The position numbers and the translations under genes are program-made. The notes under the pieces were generated by a model. It had not been told where the DNA came from and did no database searches. It saw only the letters and a program-made list of their open reading frames with translations. 34,070 nt of DNA from an uncultured Chloroflexota bacterium. GTDB lineage: Bacteria; Chloroflexota; Chloroflexia; Chloroflexales; Chloroflexaceae. Shown here one piece after another: positions 6,852 to 9,605 of the stretch. The first letter of the stretch is position 1, and each line of letters begins with the position of its first letter. The stretch spans positions 1-34,070 of the forward strand of contig CAKZKA010000274.1 in the NCBI GenBank assembly GCA_937120965.1, read 5' to 3'.

Positions 6852-7550
6852 ATGATGAACCAGCGTCCGCTCCTCTCGATTATTATGCCGTGCTACAACG
6901 AGGCGGCAACCTTGCCGCACATCCTGGAGCGCGTCTACGCCGTGGATCTGGATAAGGAGATCATCGCCGTTGATGACCATTCCTCTGATGCTACCCTGGA
7001 AGTGCTGCAGGCCGAGGCTGCGCGCCGTCCGCGATTGACCGTGATCAGCCATCCGGAGAACCGGGGCAAGGGCGCCGCGGTGCGGAGCGGCCTGGCTCAT
7101 GCCCGCGGGCAGATCACGATCATCCAGGATGCTGATCTGGAGTACGATCCGGGTGACTACTATGCCCTGGTCAAACCAATTGTCGAAGGACGGGTGGATG
7201 TGGTCTTTGGCAGTCGGTTCATGGGCAGTCATACCGGCATGTACTTCTGGAACGCTATTGGCAACAAGGGTCTCACCTTCCTGACTAACTTTCTCTTCAA
7301 CTGCTGGATCTCGGATATGGAGACCTGCTACAAAGTGATGCGCACCGAGATCATTCGCGAGTTGAACCTGGAGAGCAATGATTTTCGCCTCGAGCCCGAG
7401 ATTACGGCCAAGGTGCTCAAGCGGGGGCATCGTATTCTTGAGGTGCCGATTAGCTACATCGGTCGCACCTACGAAGAAGGCAAAAAGATGAAGCCCAGCC
7501 AGGGTTTCTACGCCATTCTGGCGCTGTTCCGTTATCGCTTCGTGGACTGA
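6852..7550 (+). CDS. GT2 glycosyltransferase, dolichyl-phosphate mannose synthase (DPM1) type
   Basis: The start is placed at 6852 (ATGATGAACCAGCG) because everything upstream is repeat. That gives 232 aa, the usual length for DPM1-like proteins without TM segments. The GT-A fold is seen from LLSIIMPCYNEAATLPHIL, EIIAVDDHSSDAT, NRGKGAAVRSGL and the metal-binding DADLEYDPGDY. Then come VFGSRFMG and SDMETCYKVM, the acceptor-side motif of this family, and EPEITAKVLKRG with EVPISYIGRTYEEGKK. It should make a polyprenyl-phosphate-linked hexose at the membrane face. That could supply the GT-C-like protein encoded at 3377. The sugar is not determined. Confidence 0.88.
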   Translation: MMNQRPLLSIIMPCYNEAATLPHILERVYAVDLDKEIIAVDDHSSDATLEVLQAEAARRPRLTVISHPENRGKGAAVRSGLAHARGQITIIQDADLEYDPGDYYALVKPIVEGRVDVVFGSRFMGSHTGMYFWNAIGNKGLTFLTNFLFNCWISDMETCYKVMRTEIIRELNLESNDFRLEPEITAKVLKRGHRILEVPISYIGRTYEEGKKMKPSQGFYAILALFRYRFVD

Positions 7551-7665: not shown

Positions 7666-7892
7666 TCATCTATGCGGCTGCGCCGCACAAAGCTGGAATG
7701 AAACGTGTAGTAGAGACGCAGCGCCGCTACGTCTCTACGCTCAAACCCTCCCGCCAGGGAGGGGCGTGGGGAAACCCGGTTTCCCCATGTCCCAACCGCT
7801 GCTGGGAGCGGCTGGCGCCCCTACAGGCAGGGGTGCGGTTCGACAGGCTCACCGCAGGTGGGGAAACCCGGTTTCCCCGTATGTTCACCTCA
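7666..7892. repeat. R1 repeat block
   Basis: R1 palindromes lie at 7768-7786 and 7860-7878. They are 92 nt apart because a segment containing GGTTCGACAGGCTCACCGCA, present in several other blocks, is interposed. The block starts with the TGCGGCTGCGCCGCA hairpin and ends with TTCACCTCA at 7892, just before the promoter at 7904. Confidence 0.85.
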
Positions 7893-7903
7893 GAACCAGT
7901 GAG

Positions 7904-7932
7904 TTGTGCGCTTCCTGGACTGATGGTATAAC
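7904..7932 (+). promoter_or_regulatory. Promoter of the structured leader RNA
   Basis: TTGTGC (7904-7909), a 17-nt spacer and TATAAC (7927-7932). The predicted start of transcription is at about 7938-7940. It lies 12 nt after the end of the R1 block, in unique sequence. Confidence 0.6.
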
Positions 7933-7937
7933 AGTAG

Positions 7938-8043
7938 GGAACAACCTGTGGCGCCAGGGCAGCGGAGGCGCTGCCGCGGGCGCAAGCGAAAGCCCCGATG
8001 GCGGGCGGAAGGGACGCGTAAGATTCCCCCTTCCGCCCCTTTT
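7938..8043 (+). ncRNA. Candidate structured leader RNA (three-way junction plus terminator)
   Basis: By eye the RNA folds into a three-way junction. P1 is CGCCA (7952-7956) with TGGCG (7999-8003). P2 is GGCAGCG (7958-7964) with CGCTGCC (7969-7975), loop GAGG. P3 is GGGC (7978-7981) with GCCC (7992-7995), loop GCAAGCGAAA. Base 8003 is shared between P1 and the first base of the terminator stem that follows, the arrangement expected of a riboswitch or attenuator expression platform. The 3' end is 34 nt before the GTG of the GT4 gene. I compared it mentally with common classes (TPP, SAM, cobalamin, c-di-GMP, glycine, ZTP, fluoride, SRP RNA) and see no match. It could be a ligand-sensing leader or a free small RNA. 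Confidence 0.5.
8003..8043 (+). terminator. Intrinsic terminator ahead of the GT4 gene
   Basis: A perfect 11-bp stem GGGCGGAAGGG (8003-8013) / CCCTTCCGCCC (8028-8038) has a 14-nt loop and is followed by CTTTTC. It would stop transcripts from the 7904 promoter before the GT4 start, so read-through must be conditional or partial. Confidence 0.75.
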
Positions 8044-8077
8044 CATGCCATCCCCGCGGGACGGAAGGAGAGCGTTG

Positions 8078-9349
8078 GTGCGTATCGCAATGCTAAGCGT
8101 GCACAGCAGCCCGCTGGCGCGGCTGGGCGGCAAAGAAGCCGGTGGGATGAACGTCTACGTGCGCGAACTGGCGCGCGAGCTGGGCAGCCGCGGCACGCCG
8201 GTAGATATTTTTACCCGCAGTCAGGATCCGGGCAGGCCGACAGTGGAGGCCCTGAGTTGCGGAGTGCGGGTGATCCACCTGCACACCGGCCCGAATGTGC
8301 CCTATGACAAGAACTGGGTACTCACCTACCTGCCCGAATTCGTGAGCCGGGTGCGGTGCTTCGCCGATGGCGAGGATCTGGCCTATGACCTGATCCATAG
8401 CCACTACTGGCTCTCAGGCGAAGCCGCGCTGCGCCTGCGGCGCAGTTGGGGCGTGCCGGTAGTGCAGATGTTTCACACCCTCGGCGCTATGAAAAACCAG
8501 GTGGCCCGCAGCAGCGACGAGAGCGAAACCGGGCAGCGCATCGCCATCGAGCGGCGCCTGTTGCACGAGGTTGATGCCGTGATCGCCGCGACGCCGCTGG
8601 ACCGGGCGCAGATGGTCTGGCACTATGGCGCCGATCCGCGGCGCATCCATGTGGTGCCCTGCGGCGTGGATCTGCGCCGCTTTCAGCCCCGGCCCCGGGC
8701 CGAAGCGCGGGCGCAGTTGGGTCTGCCTGCGGCTGAGCGGCTGCTGGTGTGCGTGGGGCGGATGGAGCCGTTGAAGGGCATGGACGCCCTCATCCGCGCC
8801 CTGCCGCTGATCCTGACCCGAGACATAGCAGCCCGCGTCCTGCTAATCGGCGGCGAGGACGAGGGCCACCCGGCAGCCTGGAACGCCGAACAGCGCCGAC
8901 TCGACGCCCTGCGCCGCGACCTGGGTGTGACCGAGCGGGTGCATTTCCTCGGCGCGCAGCCGCAGGAACGGCTACCGGCGTACTATGCCGCTGCCGACGT
9001 TGTGGCGGCGCCCTCGCACTACGAGTCGTTCGGGCTGGCGGCCCTGGAGGCGCTGGCCTGCGGCGCCGTGGTGGTAGCCAGCCGTGCCGGGGGGCTGGCG
9101 CTGACGATTGAAGATGGGCGCAGCGGATTGCTCGCCCCCCCCGACGATCATCGCGCGCTGGCCGAGCAGATCCTGCGCGTGCTGGAGAACCCCGCTCTGG
9201 CCGCGGCACTGCGCGCTGGCGCGCGCCGACGCGCCGAGGAGTACGGCTGGGGACCGATTGCCCGGCGCATCGGCGCGATCTACGACCAGGTCATCGCCGA
9301 GCGGCTGGCAGCCTGGGCGGCCCGGCGCGCCCTGGCCCAGGTATCCTGA
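8078..9349 (+). CDS. GT4 glycosyltransferase, MshA-like
   Basis: The start is GTG at 8078, preceded by GGAAGGAG at 8063-8070 with 7-nt spacing; upstream codons are repeat and RNA. The 423-aa GT-B enzyme carries the GGMNVYVRELARELGSRG motif typical of MshA (D-inositol-3-phosphate glycosyltransferase) and sucrose-phosphate-synthase-like GT4 proteins. It also has FHTLGAMKN, the PCGVDLRRFQP hinge motif, LVCVGRMEPLKGMD, and the retaining-GT4 EX7E element within SHYESFGLAALEALACG. It transfers a hexose from a nucleotide sugar. Mycothiol synthesis is not expected in Chloroflexota, so a lipid or polysaccharide acceptor is more likely. A predicted terminator 34 nt upstream suggests expression is set by attenuation. 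Confidence 0.88.
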   Translation: MRIAMLSVHSSPLARLGGKEAGGMNVYVRELARELGSRGTPVDIFTRSQDPGRPTVEALSCGVRVIHLHTGPNVPYDKNWVLTYLPEFVSRVRCFADGEDLAYDLIHSHYWLSGEAALRLRRSWGVPVVQMFHTLGAMKNQVARSSDESETGQRIAIERRLLHEVDAVIAATPLDRAQMVWHYGADPRRIHVVPCGVDLRRFQPRPRAEARAQLGLPAAERLLVCVGRMEPLKGMDALIRALPLILTRDIAARVLLIGGEDEGHPAAWNAEQRRLDALRRDLGVTERVHFLGAQPQERLPAYYAAADVVAAPSHYESFGLAALEALACGAVVVASRAGGLALTIEDGRSGLLAPPDDHRALAEQILRVLENPALAAALRAGARRRAEEYGWGPIARRIGAIYDQVIAERLAAWAARRALAQVS

Positions 9350-9576: not shown

Positions 9577-9605
9577 TTGACAACCCCATACCGGCGTATT
9601 ATACT
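9577..9605 (+). promoter_or_regulatory. Near-consensus promoter of pufL-pufM
   Basis: TTGACA (9577-9582), a 17-nt spacer and TATACT (9600-9605) are the strongest sigma70-type match in the window. The leader to pufL is about 140 nt. No TGT-N12-ACA (PpsR/CrtJ) site is evident around it. A near-consensus promoter fits a highly expressed photosynthesis operon. Confidence 0.75.

Follow-up and report, generated by a model that had tools for sequence, protein, structure and literature searches.

A predicted leader RNA with the anatomy of an attenuator upstream of a GT4-family glycosyltransferase gene in Chloroflexales

The leader and its locus

We analysed a 34,070-nucleotide stretch of DNA (the window) from an uncultured Chloroflexaceae bacterium, in which the gene order is a GT2 gene (ending at 7550), the leader, a GT4 gene, pufL and pufM. 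The features of the leader and the gene that follows it are given in Table 1. The GT4 product is MshA-like, yet its score lies under the NCBIfam cut-off. Its start codon is more likely GTG 8078 than TTG 8075, because the GT4 genes of relatives begin there. Further downstream, a near-consensus promoter (TTGACA-17-TATACT, 11/12) was observed at 9577-9605 upstream of pufL, so that the reaction-centre genes are probably transcribed from a start separate from that of GT4. The palindrome GGAAACCCGGTTTCC was observed as a dispersed repeat at about 30 places in the window (158-34010), e.g. at 7770-7784 and 7862-7876; counted by strand and allowing up to 2 mismatches, these 34 kb contain 55 matches, versus 0.09 expected.

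Table 1. Positions in the window of the leader elements and the GT4 gene
Feature	Position	Strand	Details
Promoter	7904-7932	+	TTGTGC 7904-7909; 17-nt spacer; extended -10 TGG (7924-7926) and TATAAC (7927-7932)
Predicted transcript start, AGGGAA	7936-7941	+	start site inferred
Hairpin P1	7951-7983	+	outer stem GCGCC ... GGCGC; inner stem GGCAGC[GGAGGC]GCTGCC
Hairpin P2	7994-8005	+	CCC[GATGGC]GGG; hexaloop closed by C-G, G at position 4
Terminator-like hairpin T	8003-8043	+	8003-8013 pairs with 8028-8038, then C and TTTT 8040-8043
Putative ribosome-binding site, AAGGAG	8065-8070	+	seven bases before GTG 8078
GT4-family glycosyltransferase gene	8078-9349	+	MshA-like, 365.9 bits vs NCBIfam cut-off 462.5

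The original prediction had described a promoter TTGTGC-17-TATAAC and a perfect 11-bp terminator stem followed by TTTT, and both were found exactly as claimed, the stem of T enclosing a 14-nt loop. The promoter sequence occurs once in the 5.18-Mb genome. It was absent from the list of a standard sigma-70 scan because its -35 element matches TTGACA at only 3/6 positions, and T was not picked up by a terminator scan of the window because of its loop length and short T run. Since simple scans returned neither, the support for both rests on conservation, which backs the putative promoter where a consensus match does not.

Conservation among the Chloroflexales

Judged by its named relatives, the organism of the window lies near Chloroflexaceae metagenome genomes; the comparison also covered the clades Chloroflexus, Candidatus Chloroploca, Oscillochloris, Viridilinea, Roseiflexus and Herpetosiphon. 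GT4 orthologues were found throughout the Chloroflexales, with a match to the GT4 protein in 41/41 family genomes. Conservation upstream of these orthologues had been named as a check of the original prediction, and it was borne out: among the 29 family loci with upstream sequence, 23 carry the promoter form TTGTGN-17-TGGTAYAAC (20 with TTGT at -35, three keeping only the -10 part), and most of these 23 have a terminator-like hairpin downstream of it. An (A)GGGAA motif directly 3' of the -10 box recurs in Chloroflexus, the window's genus and Roseiflexus. When twelve loci of several genera were compared pairwise, mean identity was 76% over the first 300 bases of GT4, 57% in the promoters and 30% in the leaders. 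From these comparisons the promoter form and the predicted RNA layout (P1, hexaloop P2, T) appear conserved between genera, and the RNA sequence does not. The leader was not found at the GT4 orthologues of Viridilinea, Oscillochloris fontis and Herpetosiphon.

In accordance with the earlier failure to recognise a known class, the leader matched no Rfam family at the gathering cut-off, and relaxed thresholds gave nothing credible, the best sub-threshold scores being far below the cut-off. Covariance models built from two genera, the window's genus and Chloroflexus (R1 and R2), were run across 82 genomes; apart from one duplicated copy, all of their strong matches lay ahead of the GT4 gene. That copy (L092, in Chloroflexus G006) is a segmental duplication some 19 kb away from the intact locus and comprises GT2, the leader and a truncated start of GT4. 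The remaining matches were weak, and several of them scored on both strands. The idea of a dispersed element was rejected on these results, and the restriction of strong matches to the GT4 gene speaks against a riboswitch or sRNA family with dispersed members.

The position of T relative to the gene bears on the sRNA reading that had also been put forward, in which a stand-alone RNA of about 105 nt with its own promoter and terminator acts in trans and merely lies upstream of GT4. This is rather improbable. In its favour, the unit from promoter to terminator is complete, and in three relatives the hairpin and the gene are 136-233 nt apart; a few loci have an insertion of 100-200 nt. However, the hairpin keeps its place between the promoter and GT4 and has no other copies except the segmental duplication; its 3' end lies 14-31 nt upstream of the start codon at most loci, often about 15 nt. 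In Chloroflexus and Chloroploca it abuts the ribosome-binding site, leaving no space for a further promoter, and the RNA sequence is weakly conserved.

Fold of the leader and the hexaloop hairpin

A three-way junction had been proposed for the region ahead of T. It is not the minimum-energy fold, and its closing helix is paired in 52% of the cells of the alignment of the window's genus, versus 91% for a model of P1 (as an extended stem) and P2, in which 4 pairs are changed on both sides among 5 species. The junction is therefore merely an alternative fold, and as a conserved core it was ruled out; the remark that base 8003 is common to its closing stem (C7952-G8003) and to the stem of T is correct. 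In Chloroflexus, P1 and T are paired in 96% of cells and six pairs are changed on both sides, counts that, like those of the window's genus, come from small related samples with structures derived from the same sequences. The compensatory changes favour the predicted P1 and T structures, short of proof. The 109-nt leader (7936-8044) folds moderately better than its shuffles (z -2.4), and a longer stretch of 146 nt (7935-8080) more weakly so (z -1.6). Leaders of relatives gave z values from -2.6 to -6.5 in 8/9 cases and -1.3 in the remaining one.

The same data make it very unlikely that the leader is a metabolite riboswitch of a new class, with P1 or the three-way-junction domain as the aptamer. 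Such an element would be expected between a promoter and a terminator, and the junction can also be folded in the most distant member of the genus (L006). On the other side stand the partial pairing of the closing helix and the absence of P1 from the g2 leaders and from five leaders of the genus Roseiflexus, in which P2 and T are present. The claim of a new ligand-sensing element was not upheld, as no aptamer-like sequence core is kept between genera at about 30% identity and the covariance matches are confined to a single gene, with no Rfam match.

P2 recurs across loci, directly 5' of T, as a hairpin of 3-5 bp whose hexaloop is closed by C-G and has G as its fourth base (G4). The loops are GATGGC and GATGCC in the window's genus, ATTGAT and ATGGAT in Chloroploca, GACGAC and GACGAA in two Oscillochloris-type genomes, AATGCA in g6, GGAGGG, TGAGGG and TGAGAG in Chloroflexus, AAAGCG and AACGAG in g2, and ACGGAG, ACTGAG, ACTGAT and ACAGAG in Roseiflexus. 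Position 4 is always G in these loops and the remaining positions vary; as the script-based search required G4, a plain MAFFT alignment gives the fairer view, and in ten P2 regions from six genera its invariant columns were the stem C/G and the loop G only.

A G4 hexaloop beside a strong hairpin was found in 23/29 GT4 leaders having such a hairpin, a conservative count since the automatic terminator finder chose a hairpin other than T at three loci. The background, measured on a 400-kb sample from each of two genomes as G4 hexaloops beside a strong upstream hairpin, was 10/51 in Roseiflexus and 11/48 in Chloroflexus (about 21%), and shuffled leaders gave an expectation of 0-0.31 per locus; in these comparisons the pattern had been spotted before any test, and the loci, being related, do not count as independent.

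In the window the 3' strand of P2 (GGG, 8003-8005) forms the first three bases of T and is used by both hairpins. At most loci, too, P2 and T share bases where the 3' strand of the former runs into the 5' arm of the latter, so that the two cannot fully coexist and are mutually exclusive. The overlap was found in the window's genus, Chloroflexus, Chloroploca and g2, and is marginal in Roseiflexus, with at most one or two bases. In the window's genus P2 has only 3 bp and cannot outcompete T without help.

Proposed attenuation and comparison with known systems

The leader can be regarded, on comparative grounds, as a real, conserved and uncatalogued element with the anatomy of an attenuator, and the attenuator-type architecture of promoter, structured RNA and terminator-like hairpin proposed in the original prediction is supported. 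We consider it somewhat probable that the leader attenuates transcription in cis, for this one gene, and that a factor which holds P2 keeps T from forming. Transcription would start near 7936, and P1 would fold first, followed by the small hairpin P2. With P2 unheld, the polymerase would continue, T would take over 8003-8005 and form, acting as a transcription terminator, and most transcripts would end near 8043 as an RNA of about 105 nt. With a factor, most likely an RNA-binding protein, on the P2 hexaloop, the base of T could not close and the GT4 gene would be read. Support was obtained from the conserved linkage to the gene, the form of the promoter, the overlap of P2 with T, the conserved G of the hexaloop and the compensatory changes in paired bases. 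Counting against attenuation are the absence of the leader at some GT4 orthologues, the 3-bp stem of P2 in the window's genus and the T runs. These runs are short in the window; in Oscillochloris-type and Roseiflexus loci they are poor, and termination may be weak there. Alternatively, the hairpin could be constitutive and give partial termination or stabilise the 5' end of the mRNA, without regulation. This is an unlikely reading; poor T runs in several genera and loss in some lineages agree with it, but it leaves the recurrent hexaloop P2, with an invariant G4 and an overlap with T, unexplained.

Among known systems, Rfam riboswitch classes resemble the attenuator-like leader in leader position with a terminator, and differ in that the leader gave no gathering-score match. 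The GT4 hexaloop pattern presumably differs from the BglG/SacY-type RNA site. In BglG/SacY-type leaders an antiterminator hairpin overlaps the adjacent terminator (PMC3369931), and the GT4 leader has a similar antiterminator-like hairpin.

ANTAR targets, such as the leaders of eutP of Enterococcus faecalis, nasF and amiE, have two hexaloop hairpins with A1 and G4, and a single hairpin was insufficient for EutV binding (PMC3369931); of actinobacterial examples, over half keep A1 and over half keep G4 (PMC8164766). Like these RNAs (PMC3369931), the GT4 leader has in the 5' leader a small G4 hexaloop whose 3' strand overlaps a terminator, and a six-nucleotide loop with G4, as in their second hairpin, is present in the window and most GT4 leaders. 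Unlike them, GT4 leaders generally lack the first hexaloop hairpin and have one hexaloop, with no tandem pair at a linker of 2-25 nt; P1 of the window can itself be read as a hexaloop, but P1 loops in other genera have 4-5 nt, and the dual arrangement fails outside the window's genus. Loop position 1 is G instead of A in the window and its genus, in Oscillochloris-type and in most Chloroflexus leaders; leaders of Chloroploca, g2, g6 and Roseiflexus have A there. Because the dual hairpin is missing outside the window's genus and a single one did not suffice for EutV, we describe the leader as antiterminator-like in its working and did not file it as an ANTAR RNA.

ANTAR proteins were found in 79/82 Chloroflexales genomes, mostly two or three per genome, versus 0/14 control genomes. 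Those inspected have a receiver domain ahead of the ANTAR domain, and most Chloroflexales have about one to three such REC-ANTAR response regulators per genome. The presence of paralogues does not track the leader, as Herpetosiphon has two and no such leader. Gene neighbours recur, and were recognised by eye: one REC-ANTAR gene lies beside chorismate-mutase/DAHP-synthase-like genes, and another, in Chloroflexaceae, beside a dipeptide-epimerase-like gene. A search of 800 kb from Roseiflexus and Chloroflexus together found no canonical dual A1/G4 hexaloop with terminator, which left no background ANTAR regulon to compare with, and for Chloroflexota the literature searched yielded neither an ANTAR target nor a leader of this kind. 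A possible second hexaloop attenuator was observed ahead of a phosphoenolpyruvate carboxylase gene of Chloroflexus G006 (L165:2900-3003), where the hexaloop GATC[ACAGAA]GGTT (A1, G4) precedes a strong terminator with TTTTT by about 6 nt.

Owing to the hexaloop and the near-universal REC-ANTAR proteins, a REC-ANTAR response regulator is the leading candidate for the factor that would hold P2, a tentative assignment. It is more doubtful that a lineage-specific, single-hexaloop form of ANTAR antitermination, in which one loop and lineage-specific elements replace the dual hairpin, controls this one glycosyltransferase gene across the Chloroflexales. The GT4 leader offers a concrete, single-gene candidate ANTAR target in Chloroflexales, and if ANTAR proteins bind it, the two-hexaloop recognition rule would need revision.
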